This document shows positions 53,151 to 56,322 of a stretch of 62,857 nucleotides of DNA, piece by piece. The translations under genes were made by a program, and so were the position numbers. The notes beneath the pieces are model-generated. The model saw only the letters and a program-made list of their open reading frames with translations, ran no database searches and was not told the origin of the DNA. Positions within the stretch are counted from its first letter, which is position 1, and each line of letters begins with the position of its first letter. Source of the DNA: Pseudomonas sp. B6002 (GTDB lineage Bacteria > Pseudomonadota > Gammaproteobacteria > Pseudomonadales > Pseudomonadaceae); assembly GCF_013385985.1 (NCBI RefSeq), contig NZ_JACAOY010000022.1, positions 9,608 through 72,464 on the forward strand. The letters run 5' to 3'.

Positions 53151-53549
53151 ATGTCACTGAGCTTCCGCGCCCTCGCTACGTTTACCGCCCTGCTGTGCTT
53201 TGCCCTCGCGTTGGTCTGGGGCCTGCGTCCCGACCTGCTGCTGTGGTTGTGGAGCGTCGAGTATTCCAGCGCGACCGGGCTGGTCTCACGCCGCAACGCC
53301 GCGCTGTTCCTGGCGATCGGCATCATGTTCTACCGCGCTCGCCATGCACCGCCCTCTGACACACGAAGCGCCCTGACCACCGGCTTTATCACCGGTTGCC
53401 TGGTATTGGCTGTGCTGGGGTTCAGTGAATGGATCAATGGCAATGCAGGGCCAGGCATCCTGCTGGCAGTGGCAACAGAAACCGTACTGGGCCTGGCGTT
53501 TATCCAGGCCCACAGGTCGTCGGTGATTCAACCTCAGACGTCGGCCTAG
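53151..53549 (+). CDS. Hypothetical membrane protein, 4 TM, 132 aa
   Basis: Function not recognised. Four predicted transmembrane segments lie at about residues 5-28, 47-63, 74-92 and 98-115 (LATFTALLCFALALVWGL; NAALFLAIGIMFY; GFITGCLVLAVLGF; GILLAVATETVLGLAFI). Short charged loops lie between them. AAAGGA precedes the ATG at 53151. Its stop codon overlaps that of the opposite-strand DUF1652 gene: both stops lie within CTAG at 53546-53549. Confidence 0.75.
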   Translation: MSLSFRALATFTALLCFALALVWGLRPDLLLWLWSVEYSSATGLVSRRNAALFLAIGIMFYRARHAPPSDTRSALTTGFITGCLVLAVLGFSEWINGNAGPGILLAVATETVLGLAFIQAHRSSVIQPQTSA

Positions 53550-53815
53550 TAGTAGCCGCGTCCTCCCACTCTTTGCAGGGCGGGTGCATGGGTGTGCTTG
53601 AGGTCTTCGCGCAACCCGGTGATCAGGTTGCAAATGGCTCGACTGCTGTCGAGCTTGTCGGCGTTGATGCCTTTGACTTCCAGATCCACTCGGTCACGGT
53701 CGCGGTCGTCATAGACCTTGATCGTCAGCGAGGCATCTTCGGCTTTGGTGCACTCGCACCGTTTAGGCAGGAAACTTCCTTCAATAATGCTGCGAAGTTC
53801 TAATTCCGAAAGCAT
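53546..53815 (-). CDS. DUF1652 protein
   Basis: The 89-residue cytoplasmic protein matches the small Pseudomonas DUF1652 family: it starts MLSELELRSIIEGSFLPKRC and continues CTKAEDASLTIKVYD, then SSRAICNLITGLREDLKH. The fold looks like alpha-beta with conserved Cys pairs (KRCECT). GGAGAGG precedes the ATG at 53815; a TTG two codons earlier is closer to the ribosome site and less likely. Function unknown. It converges with the 4-TM protein gene, sharing a CTAG at the ends. Confidence 0.82.
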   Translation of the reverse strand: MLSELELRSIIEGSFLPKRCECTKAEDASLTIKVYDDRDRDRVDLEVKGINADKLDSSRAICNLITGLREDLKHTHAPALQRVGGRGYY

Positions 53816-53956
53816 GGCCAACCTCTCCTTTTATGAGACTGCCAATCAGTTTTTATGAACGCTCAAGTTGCTGGCAGGTGCGTGCCTGCCACGTCTTGCC
53901 AACCCTGGAAGACGCTTTCAATCACCAGCCTACTCGGCAAAATCCCCTCTCGTTGT

Positions 53957-54069: not shown

Positions 54070-55092
54070 TTAAACAGCCGTTTGCGCCGCCACTCTTTCA
54101 GCAACATGTCGCAAACTATCGAAATTGATATTGGCGCCTGAATTGATCGCCACCAGGGTTTGGCCACGCGTACCGGTTCGCTCGACGTAACGACGAATGC
54201 CTGCCACGGCGAGTGCGCCTGAGGGTTCGGTGATCGAGCGGGTATCGTCGTAGATCAGCTTGATGGCGCTGCACAACTCGTCGTTGCTCACGGTGATCAC
54301 TTCATCCACCCAGTCGCGGCAGATTTCATACCCATAGGCACCGACCTGCGCCACGGCGGTGCCATCGGCAAACCCGTCGACACTGGGCAACACCACCCGC
54401 TCACCGGCACGCAAGGCCGCCAACAGGCAGCTGGAGCCTTCGGTCTCGACGCCGATGATGCGCACCTGGGGCCGCAGGTATTTGACGTAGGCGGCAACGC
54501 CGGCGATCAAGCCCCCGCCGCCGACCGGTACGAAGATCGCATCCAGCGCACCCTGTTGCTGGCGCAGCACTTCCATGGCCACTGTGCCCTGGCCCGCGAT
54601 CACGTCCGGGTCATCGAACGGCGACACAAAGGTGCAACCCGAAGTCTTGGCCAATTGCAGCGCATGGGCCAGCGCGAAGGGAAAGCTCTCCCCATGCAGC
54701 ACCGCCTCGGCACCTCGGGAGCGCACACCCAGCACCTTCAGTTGCGGCGTGCTGCAGGGCATGACGATGCGTGCCTTGATCCCCAGCTCCAGCGCGGCCA
54801 GTGCCACACCTTGGGCGTGGTTGCCCGCCGACGCGGTGACCACGCCCCGGGCCCTTTGCTCGGCCGTGAGCTGCACCAACTTGTTGTAGGCGCCGCGAAT
54901 CTTGAAGGAAAAGGTCGGCTGCAGGTCCTCACGCTTGAGCAACACCTGATTGCCCAACAACGCCGACAGCGCCGGGGCTGCCTGCAAGGGCGTGCGCACT
55001 GCCAAGTCATAGACCGGTGCGGCGAGGATCTTTTTCACGTAGTGCTCAAGCAGTTCCGGGTTGGCGGTGTGGGGAACGGGGCACGTGCTCAT
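54070..55092 (-). CDS. Threonine dehydratase without ACT domains
   Basis: PLP enzyme that converts threonine to 2-oxobutanoate and ammonia, the first step to isoleucine. The 340 residues contain only the catalytic fold: PLP-lysine Lys64 in TFSFKIRGAYNK, TASAGNHAQGVALAA, PLP-phosphate loop VPVGGGGLIAG and INSGANINFDSLRHVAERVA at the end. The C-terminal ACT-like regulatory region of IlvA (about 500 residues) is missing, as in catabolic TdcB. AGGAG precedes the ATG at 55092. It is preceded by a leader peptide and an attenuator rich in Ile and Thr codons, so it is controlled as a biosynthetic gene although allosteric feedback through ACT domains is impossible. Confidence 0.92.
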   Translation of the reverse strand: MSTCPVPHTANPELLEHYVKKILAAPVYDLAVRTPLQAAPALSALLGNQVLLKREDLQPTFSFKIRGAYNKLVQLTAEQRARGVVTASAGNHAQGVALAALELGIKARIVMPCSTPQLKVLGVRSRGAEAVLHGESFPFALAHALQLAKTSGCTFVSPFDDPDVIAGQGTVAMEVLRQQQGALDAIFVPVGGGGLIAGVAAYVKYLRPQVRIIGVETEGSSCLLAALRAGERVVLPSVDGFADGTAVAQVGAYGYEICRDWVDEVITVSNDELCSAIKLIYDDTRSITEPSGALAVAGIRRYVERTGTRGQTLVAINSGANINFDSLRHVAERVAAQTAV

Positions 55093-55132
55093 CGGTGTCT
55101 CCTGGCGCTTTGTTTGAAGGCCCTGGAGACGG

Positions 55133-55161
55133 AAAAACAAAACCCGCCTCTAGGGCGGGTT
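55133..55161 (-). terminator. Attenuator terminator before the threonine dehydratase gene
   Basis: On the minus strand, arms AACCCGCC and GGCGGGTT (55161-55154 with 55148-55141) with a 5-nt loop, followed by TTGTTTTT. It lies 16 nt after the leader-peptide stop and 40 nt before the gene. It can be replaced by an alternative pairing with 55182-55187. Confidence 0.88.
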
Positions 55162-55177
55162 GGGGTGCAGCCGTGTG

Positions 55178-55243
55178 CTATCCCGCCAAATGAGGAATGG
55201 CGGTAATAATCATCAGCGGGCTACGCAAGGTTTGTAATGTCAT
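55178..55243 (-). CDS. Leader peptide of the threonine dehydratase attenuator, 21 aa
   Basis: A short open frame of 22 codons from ATG (55243) to TAG (55178), directly before a rho-independent terminator. Ten of 21 residues are Ile, Leu or Thr (MTLQTLRSPLMIITA, then IPHLAG). The control run Ile-Ile-Thr-Ala-Ile (codons 12-16) overlaps the first arm of a set of mutually exclusive hairpins. The ribosome site is not strong. Its placement and composition match leader peptides of amino-acid biosynthetic operons. Confidence 0.72.
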   Translation of the reverse strand: MTLQTLRSPLMIITAIPHLAG

Positions 55244-55328
55244 GCAACGAAATTAACCGGCGCCTGGCGGGCAAGTCAATGGCCTGCTGCCATTTAGCCG
55301 CTGGGGGTTTACGACGAACATACGAAAC

Positions 55329-55366: not shown

Positions 55367-55567
55367 ATGGGCATCGTCAAGATCACCGACCAACTGCACG
55401 AACAGCTTCGCCTGGCCAGCGCCGCCATGGACCGCTCCATCAACGCCCAGGCCGAGTTCTGGATCAAGATCGGCCTGCTCGCCGAACTCAACCCCCACCT
55501 GCCCTACAACGAGTTGATCAACAAACTGTTGCTGGACAAGCCCGACCTGATCCGGGGGCGCAGTTGA
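55367..55567 (+). CDS. ParD-like antitoxin-family protein, 66 aa
   Basis: The small protein matches the ParD-like family (PF11903 from memory): MGIVKITDQLHEQLRLASAA opens with a ribbon-type strand and a helix, then MDRSINAQAEFWIKIGLLAE, then a Leu-rich end (INKLLLDKPDLI). A ribbon-helix-helix DNA-binding N-terminus is likely. The start is ATG 55367 or GTG 55358. Its stop overlaps the start of a methionine aminopeptidase by one base (TGATG), so the two are made together. No ParE, RelE or other toxin gene is next to it; the aminopeptidase occupies the toxin position. Confidence 0.8.
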   Translation: MGIVKITDQLHEQLRLASAAMDRSINAQAEFWIKIGLLAELNPHLPYNELINKLLLDKPDLIRGRS

Positions 55568-56322
55568 TGATCAAGACCGCCCCACAATTGGCCGTAATGC
55601 GTGAATCCGGCCGCCTGCTGGCCCAGGTGTTCAGCATGCTCGACGGGTTTGTCTGTGCCGGCCGCTCCACCCTGGAGCTGGACGCCGCCGTCGAGGCCTT
55701 CATCCGCAACGACCTGAAAGCCCGCCCCGCCAGCCTCGGCCAATACGACTACCCATTTAGCATCAACACCTCGATCAACGAGGTGGTTTGCCATGGCATG
55801 CCCAGCGCCAAGGACATCCTCAAGGACGGCGACATCATCAACATCGACATCACCCTGGAAAAAGGCGGGTTTATCGCCGATTCCAGCAAGATGTACATGA
55901 TCGGCAACGTGGCGCCCAAGGCGCGGCGCCTGGTGGAAATGACCTTCGAGGCGATGTGGGCCGGCATTCGCCAGGTCAAGCCCGGGGCGCGGCTGGGTGA
56001 TATCGGCCATGCGATCCAGAGCCACGCACAGGCCAACGGCTACAGCGTGGTGCGTGATTACTGCGGCCATGGCATCGGCCGGCAGATGCATGAAGAGCCG
56101 CAAGTGCTGCACTTCGGTCGCCCTGGCACCGGGCTGGAACTGCGCGAAGGCATGGTGTTCACCATCGAGCCCATGCTCAACCAGGGTGGCGCCAAGGTGC
56201 GCAGCCTCAAGGATGGCTGGACGGTGGTGACCCGGGACAACAGCCTGTCGGCACAGTGGGAACACACTGTGGCGGTGACGGCGGATGGTTTCGAGGTGCT
56301 GACCTTGCAACCCACCCCCTAA
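55567..56322 (+). CDS. map: Type I methionine aminopeptidase, second copy
   Basis: Removes the initiator Met from proteins. The 251-residue enzyme keeps all expected residues: His76 (VCHGMP), metal ligands Asp94 (INIDITLE), Asp105 (IADSSKMY), His168 (CGHGIG), Glu201 (TIEPML) and Glu232 (QWEHTV), and His175 (MHEEP). There is no N-terminal zinc finger. The essential map gene of pseudomonads normally lies near rpsB, so this is probably a paralog. It overlaps the ParD-like gene by one base. A REP doublet follows. Confidence 0.92.
   Translation: MIKTAPQLAVMRESGRLLAQVFSMLDGFVCAGRSTLELDAAVEAFIRNDLKARPASLGQYDYPFSINTSINEVVCHGMPSAKDILKDGDIINIDITLEKGGFIADSSKMYMIGNVAPKARRLVEMTFEAMWAGIRQVKPGARLGDIGHAIQSHAQANGYSVVRDYCGHGIGRQMHEEPQVLHFGRPGTGLELREGMVFTIEPMLNQGGAKVRSLKDGWTVVTRDNSLSAQWEHTVAVTADGFEVLTLQPTP

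Follow-up and report, generated by a model that had tools for sequence, protein, structure and literature searches.

The window, which denotes the whole analysed stretch of 62,857 nt, originates from Pseudomonas sp. B6002 (GCF_013385985.1, NZ_JACAOY010000022.1, positions 9,608-72,464, forward strand). A short threonine dehydratase gene, ilvA2, lies on its minus strand and is preceded by a promoter, a short leader frame and an intrinsic terminator (Table 1). Threonine dehydratase is the first enzyme of isoleucine synthesis. A longer dehydratase paralog, 70% identical and encoded in a 566-residue open frame, was found elsewhere in the same genome. A DUF1652 gene (53549-53821, minus strand) is located downstream of ilvA2, and divergently from it (55367-56319, plus strand) a ParD_like gene (PF11903, 81.8 bits) directly precedes a type I methionine aminopeptidase gene.

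Table 1. Features of the ilvA2 leader region, in window positions.
Feature	Position	Strand	Basis and conservation
-35 element TTGACT	55274..55279	-	TTGAC at most 45 nt upstream of the leader ATG in 130/131 ilvA-type loci; 35-38 nt in 127
-10 element TAATTT	55250..55255	-	spacer 18; 6 nt to the leader ATG; TTGAC + TANNNT complete in 129/131 loci
Predicted transcription start, A of the leader AUG	55243	-	predicted from promoter spacing, C at -1 (97%) and few Shine-Dalgarno-like 4-mers
Leader ORF, 21 codons + TAG, MTLQTLRSPLMIITAIPHLAG	55178..55243	-	sequence; frame kept in 131/131 loci
Control codons Ile12-Ile13 (ATT ATT)	55205..55210	-	Ile run in 131/131 leaders: two in 83, three in 48
Segment A, CCGCC	55199..55203	-	A:B helix covaries across gene classes
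Segment B, GGCGGG, in the last codons of the leader	55182..55187	-	partner of A or of C
Segment C, CCCGCC	55154..55159	-	partner of B in the antiterminator, of D in the terminator
Segment D, GGCGGG, 3' arm of the intrinsic terminator	55143..55148	-	C:D helix covaries
Terminator T-tract TTTTGTTTTT	55133..55142	-	sequence; 6-8 T in 9 nt in 127/131 loci
Shine-Dalgarno AGGAG of the dehydratase gene	55099..55103	-	sequence
Threonine dehydratase gene ilvA2, 340 aa, catalytic PALP domain only, ATG at 55092	54070..55092	-	domain search
Rfam RF00624 P9 match	55139..55213	-	Met11 of the leader to the terminator; leader start outside the match

The original prediction had placed on the minus strand a peptide of 21 residues, ten of them Ile, Leu or Thr, followed by the segments A-D and a T-run; the peptide was borne out from the sequence and all the coordinates proved correct. 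The leader codons are ATG ACA TTA CAA ACC TTG CGT AGC CCG CTG ATG ATT ATT ACC GCC ATT CCT CAT TTG GCG GGA TAG. Counted from the A of the AUG, Ile12-Ile13 occupy nt 34-39, A 41-45, B 57-62, the stop codon 64-66, C 85-90 and D 96-101. Folded in isolation, the A:B, B:C and C:D helices of the window resulted in -10.9, -11.8 and -14.2 kcal/mol, respectively, and the corresponding medians for 130 of the 131 ilvA-type loci were -10.9, -12.8 and -14.5 kcal/mol. The 141-nt stretch folded better than its dinucleotide shuffles (z -3.11; 1 of 200 shuffles was as good).

The switch RNA before ilvA2 is already catalogued, as small RNA P9. The match to RF00624 'Pseudomonas sRNA P9' scored 84.6 bits against a cut-off of 43 (E 1e-16) and was the sole gathering-score Rfam match in the whole window; no riboswitch or T-box family reached its cut-off anywhere in the window in the Rfam scan. 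P9 and the window element are the same RNA. Rfam, however, types it as an RNA gene with a model starting inside the leader frame, at Met11, so that the leader ATG and the codons preceding Met11 lie outside the model. The structure line of the model consists of the A:B and C:D hairpins, and the leader start, the promoter and the antiterminator B:C are absent from the model as displayed. Livny 2006 is reportedly the source of P9, and we take the entry to describe an RNA of unknown function. Matches to RF00624 were obtained in 225 of 299 Pseudomonas genomes, 218 above the cut-off. A search of the own genome for more copies gave one strong match, the next two having E values of 0.006-0.008.

The leader was examined in 170 oriented loci comprising the own locus, fetched genus loci (30 best, 30 from lower-scoring or multi-match genomes and 80 more, a subset of the 225) and order-level matches. 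In 131 of these loci a dehydratase with above 55% identity follows, and they formed the ilvA-type set. Loss of the leader frame among relatives that keep the terminator had been named beforehand as an outcome speaking against the original prediction; the comparison spoke in its favour. An ATG leader of 20-23 codons with the expected stop and an Ile run before segment A was found in 131/131 ilvA-type loci (97 distinct peptides); as being in frame had entered the choice of the ATG in this count, a blind test was added. In the latter, the first ATG after a promoter located independently of the frame opened the leader in 129/131 loci, again with lengths of 20-23 codons, the exceptions being L021 (an out-of-frame ATG 4 nt earlier) and L056 (no promoter). 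The leader lengths vary by whole codons, and for the spacer between the stop codon and C eight different lengths between 12 and 20 were counted. When 39 disjoint pairs of similar leaders were compared, 27 of the 72 single-change codons in the variable N-terminal part, ahead of the Ile run, were changed synonymously, compared with 18.8 expected (34 of 2000 simulations were as high).

The loop between B and C of the ilvA leaders (alignment A1; window 55177-55160, minus strand) contains a TGCA motif in at least 90%, and the stop codon is always followed by C; this might be a pause signal or additional pairing. T-tracts of 6-8 T in 9 nt are the rule (Table 1); poor ones (3-4 T in 9 nt) were detected on the P9-type leaders of L054, L056 and L154, whose terminators are perhaps decaying. 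In L141 (genome G030), which is counted among the 131, leader and terminator are kept before an internally deleted dehydratase remnant.

Order-wide, RF00624 matched in 34 of 293 genomes, 10 above the cut-off, and several of the weak matches showed the same anatomy with a different downstream gene. One such gene encodes a P-loop kinase, the leader of which reads ...RIIIIP; its nearest NCBIfam model is NF005994 'DNA topology modulation protein' with 82-84 bits, under the cut-off of 215. The same leader type was observed before SnoaL/DUF4440-like genes in L062, L063, L065, L066, L072, L073, L075, L187 and L189, the gene being assigned by Pfam in L065 and L072 and by resemblance in the others. AAA_33 proteins were identified in L064 and as the product of the second gene in L072, where the AAA_33 gene follows the SnoaL-like gene directly. 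Another ilvA type (NF006390) lies behind the leader in L092 and L093. In L089 (1499-1586, minus strand), a leader, MNNTTHAIAITILAGIIIAGVSARVG, and a terminator precede a gene for an HMGL + LeuA_dimer protein; the scores at this locus were weak, 34.3 with Thr_leader and 32.8 with P9. The SnoaL-like protein of L065 resembles the hypothetical protein YybH (2gxf; 1.4e-37 in the solved-structure search). Apart from this strong relative, the solved-structure and PADLOC searches assigned no function to the kinase, SnoaL and AAA_33 proteins.

A covariation search had been proposed with the original prediction. Among 122 distinct leaders of the ilvA class, the segments A-D show almost no variation, which makes covariation within the class uninformative as a test. 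Across gene classes, A:B and C:D covary and B:C hardly does. These values were determined from alignment A2, in which 36 members of several gene classes were hand-picked from the 170 loci. Ten RF00624 matches of 27.9-34.5 bits were left out, as an Ile pair within an ATG-started frame was lacking (L067-L069, L087, L088, L090, L094-L096, L098); L089, L092 and L093 (31-33 bits), in which such a frame is present, were kept, and L066 and L075 were left out because near rows were already included. For the A:B helix, pairing was observed in 84.9% of cells, and double changes amounted to 32 cells versus 12.2 in shuffles; the C:D helix was paired in 96.6% of cells with 10 double changes against 1.2. 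These counts lean towards A:B and C:D since the rows were found via P9's own model, already containing both helices. The number of A:B pairs showing a double change was 5 compared with 4.4 in shuffles (245 of 500 shuffles as high). Sliding the partners reduced both the A:B and the C:D signals. The B:C helix was paired in 87.2% of cells, and in 214 of 216 cells of its six-pair core, with a single double change, a count reached in 162 of 500 shuffles; its covariation score was reached by 21 of 500.

Kinase loci were additionally collected by protein, without the RNA as bait, and the best 80 of 187 were searched with R1, a model built from alignment A2. Among the first 45 loci, of which none is titled cyanobacterium, 40 gave an R1 match at a distance of about 35-45 nt before the kinase; the match was absent in L233, L251, L253, L256 and L259. 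R1 matched in none of the other 35 loci, 34 titled cyanobacteria and one Gracilibacteria. Kinase attenuators were thus found in 40/80 of these best loci, or in 40/46 of those not titled cyanobacteria. An Ile-run leader was present at all 40 loci with a match (L216-L250 except L233; L252, L254, L255, L257, L258, L260), with ATG as the start codon in 39 and GTG in one; these leaders were observed in Vibrio, Pseudoalteromonas, Neptuniibacter and others (e.g. L219:1851-1964). For the kinase-class alignment, 36 of the 40 R1-filtered loci, gathered by protein, were used after four near-duplicates had been dropped. Its B:C core was paired in 215 of 216 cells. In the C:D pair of columns 103:115, G-C was found in 14/36 and A-U in 19/36 rows, and the U in B pairs with either. 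B:C is conserved but hardly covarying.

In a class-wide sample, any R1 match was obtained in 42 of 369 genomes, mostly weak. Four genomes besides the own one reached about 60 bits or more: L188 before a kinase and L187, L189 and L190 before SnoaL-like genes (by resemblance only). Class-wide matches of 35.4 bits or less were set aside. When 19 weak matches were scanned (L180-L183, L191-L205; the short L206 was skipped), a frame with an Ile pair was found in six (L192, L194, L196, L199, L200, L203), started by ATG in L192 and L199. The match in L192 (34.9 bits) has the ATG frame MAPHSTASIIRILHGKAG. L199 is probably a thrA attenuator, scoring 46.5 bits with Thr_leader, below the cut-off of 55.

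No Shine-Dalgarno sequence precedes the leader ATG of the window, and the TTGACT...TAATTT promoter ends 6 nt upstream of it. TANNNT is located 6, 7 and 8 nt from the leader ATG in 65, 42 and 23 of the 131 loci, respectively, and C stands immediately before the ATG in 97%. Shine-Dalgarno-like 4-mers were detected at 6 of 131 leader starts, compared with 123 of 130 dehydratase genes, where any in-frame start was counted. In the kinase class, the corresponding values were 5/40 for the leaders and 39/40 for the kinase genes. Due to the promoter spacing, the C at -1 and the near absence of Shine-Dalgarno sequences, the simplest reading seems to be that the RNA begins at, or at most 1-2 bases from, the AUG. 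An attenuator whose leader has an ordinary start, with the RNA beginning further upstream and the term leaderless being wrong, is unlikely: boxes of the TANNNT type are weak by themselves, but TTGAC and TANNNT at a fixed distance, with a spacer of 17-18 nt, precede 129/131 leader ATGs and 0/9279 other ATGs of the same loci, the TTGAC -35 element with A at -11 and T at -7 precedes 38/40 kinase-class leaders and 0/5858 control ATGs, and the scarcity of Shine-Dalgarno-like 4-mers at the leaders (6/131) points in the same direction.

The leader-peptide attenuator claimed in the original prediction is well supported by the frame kept in 131/131 loci and by the alternative helices kept across gene classes. 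It is very likely that the element is a ribosome-mediated transcription attenuator which ties ilvA2 expression to the supply of charged tRNA-Ile. As judged from the promoter, the first transcribed base would be the A of the leader AUG or a neighbour of it, and the leader peptide would be begun on a leaderless RNA. With isoleucine short, the ribosome would stall at Ile12/Ile13, just 5' of A, and cover A; B would then pair with C, the terminator C:D would be blocked and RNA polymerase would read into ilvA2. With isoleucine plentiful, the ribosome would reach the UAG and cover B, or depart and let A:B form. C would pair with D and transcription would end about 110 nt from its start, the terminated leader being the RNA catalogued as 'sRNA P9'. 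The footprint of a ribosome extends about 12 nt ahead of the A-site codon. By this geometry, a stall at Ile12, Ile13 or Thr14 would cover A but not B, and B would be covered by a ribosome that has reached the stop codon. A stall at Leu19 would cover B as well, and leucine should therefore not be sensed.

The distribution of P9 was compared with the number of dehydratase genes. In the 22 P9-less genomes tested (19 of the 20 listed in the genus scan and three order-level ones), a single dehydratase match (E <1e-60) was found in 22/22, with open frames of 507-621 residues, that of G031 having an internal TGA. In contrast, two dehydratases were present in 20 of 22 P9-bearing genomes; the exceptions are G022, where the P9-linked copy alone was seen, and G030, whose P9-linked copy carries the internal deletion. 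P9 thus goes with the second paralog. Three leader types, IP-x-LAG, II-x-LAG and PVMAG, cover 127 of the 131 loci. Of the 70 loci with IP-x-LAG leaders, 61 have a downstream frame below 380 residues (6 at 380-480, 3 cut by the locus end), and behind II-x-LAG leaders the frame has at least 480 residues in 28 of 37 (1 short, 8 cut). Among the 20 PVMAG-type loci, 17 were cut, 1 was short and 2 were long. The window belongs to the branch with 61/70 frames below 380 residues, one of these being the G030 remnant. Such frames are too short for the regulatory C-terminal domain, and attenuation may therefore be the main isoleucine control there.

The linkage to the second paralog bears also on the nature of P9, which might be an independent trans-acting sRNA adjoining ilvA2, with the terminator as its own 3' end and an incidental short frame. 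In Rfam, the family carries the type 'Gene' and an sRNA name, and terminated attenuator RNAs can act in trans too, as described for S. meliloti rnTrpL in the available part of PMC7298713. Such an independent sRNA is nevertheless very unlikely, as P9 occurs together with the second dehydratase gene, leader frame and Ile codons are conserved, the codons ahead of the Ile run show a synonymous excess and relatives of P9 lie about 40 nt before other genes. The trans-sRNA and the attenuator readings can, however, hold together.

For the amino acid sensed, threonine (the substrate) or several amino acids could be considered in place of isoleucine. The leader had been described as rich in Ile, Leu and Thr in the original prediction; the Ile run is indeed common to all the leaders, but Leu is missing from 16 and Val from 56 of the 131, and Thr14 is partly set by segment A. 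Thr14 directly follows Ile13 in the window leader and Thr is present in all 131 ilvA-type leaders, which would agree with threonine sensing. However, the Thr14 codon ACC is part of segment A, and the other classes have Ile, Pro or Leu at this position with the Ile run kept; besides, the induction of a threonine-consuming enzyme when threonine is short would make little sense. Threonine or several amino acids as the signal are hence very unlikely. A fixed terminator or an RNA-only switch (a riboswitch or a protein-binding leader) with a coincidental frame is extremely improbable, as, although C:D, the terminator, has the lowest energy of the three helices folded in isolation, no riboswitch or T-box family came up to its cut-off in the window and the conserved frame, the blind ATG test and the synonymous excess argue against it.

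The enterobacterial trp, his, thr, ilv and leu leaders possess control codons, 1:2, 2:3 and 3:4 helices and an intrinsic terminator, and they start from a Shine-Dalgarno sequence some distance from the transcription start. A short leader with control codons, alternative helices and a terminator, as in the enterobacterial attenuators RF00506, RF00512 and RF00513, are found at P9 as well. The difference lies in the start, which is Shine-Dalgarno-led in enterobacteria and seemingly leaderless at P9. Membership in Trp_leader RF00513 was rejected (16.7 bits against a cut-off of 41), as was that in Thr_leader RF00506: in the window stretch, neither Thr_leader nor Leu_leader matched at E values up to 10. 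In the literature searched, no leaderless or near-leaderless attenuator was found in a gammaproteobacterium. Trans roles for P9 are not known to us. Leaderless or nearly leaderless attenuators are on record elsewhere, a nearly leaderless one in the actinobacterium Corynebacterium glutamicum. According to the available part of PMC11857589, transcription of its ilvL, the ilvBNC attenuator, starts one nucleotide from the start codon. Both ilvL and P9 have a branched-chain leader peptide, and the ilvL transcript starts near the start codon, as is predicted for P9; ilvL belongs to another gene and has Val/Ile/Leu codons. In S. meliloti rnTrpL/peTrpL, the leaderless attenuator RNA (trpL) begins with the leader ATG and the terminated leader is a small RNA; as far as the available part of PMC7298713 goes, it differs from P9 in its Trp codons, its trp genes and the trans roles shown for it. 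These two examples indicate, within the same parts of the sources, that a Shine-Dalgarno start is not a defining feature of attenuators.

That no attenuator at this gene in Pseudomonas was known to be described, as had been remarked in the original prediction, agrees with the literature searched by titles and abstract openings, in which none was found at a Pseudomonas threonine dehydratase; the RNA itself is nonetheless catalogued, as Rfam P9. No paper naming RF00624 was found in the literature searched. The terms ilvA, threonine and isoleucine are absent from the main text of Naville and Gautheret 2010 (PMC2965389) in its available part, and leaderless, leader peptide and threonine from that of Wurtzel 2012 (PMC3460626). 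The best reading, as far as sequence comparison allows, is a known kind of isoleucine-sensing transcription attenuator in a leaderless form. What appears to be new here is the predicted leaderless start of the leader and the unexpected recurrence of its anatomy before the P-loop kinase and some SnoaL-like genes.

The proposed attenuator offers a testable cis function for the catalogued RNA P9, and it suggests that the observed P9 RNA is the terminated ilvA2 leader. A conserved leaderless attenuator in a gammaproteobacterium would suit the study of leaderless initiation coupled to transcription. More tentatively, P9 could be one branch of widespread gammaproteobacterial leaderless isoleucine-stall sensors, controlling ilvA2, the other ilvA type and the HMGL/LeuA_dimer gene as well as kinase, SnoaL/YybH-like and AAA_33 genes without a known tie to isoleucine, with stalled isoleucine decoding read as a stress signal; this is possible, though rather doubtful. 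If it were true, stalled isoleucine decoding, e.g. upon inhibition of isoleucyl-tRNA synthetase, would be sensed beyond the shortage of an end product, and the switch before the kinase and SnoaL-like genes would point to unrecognised isoleucine-responsive functions.
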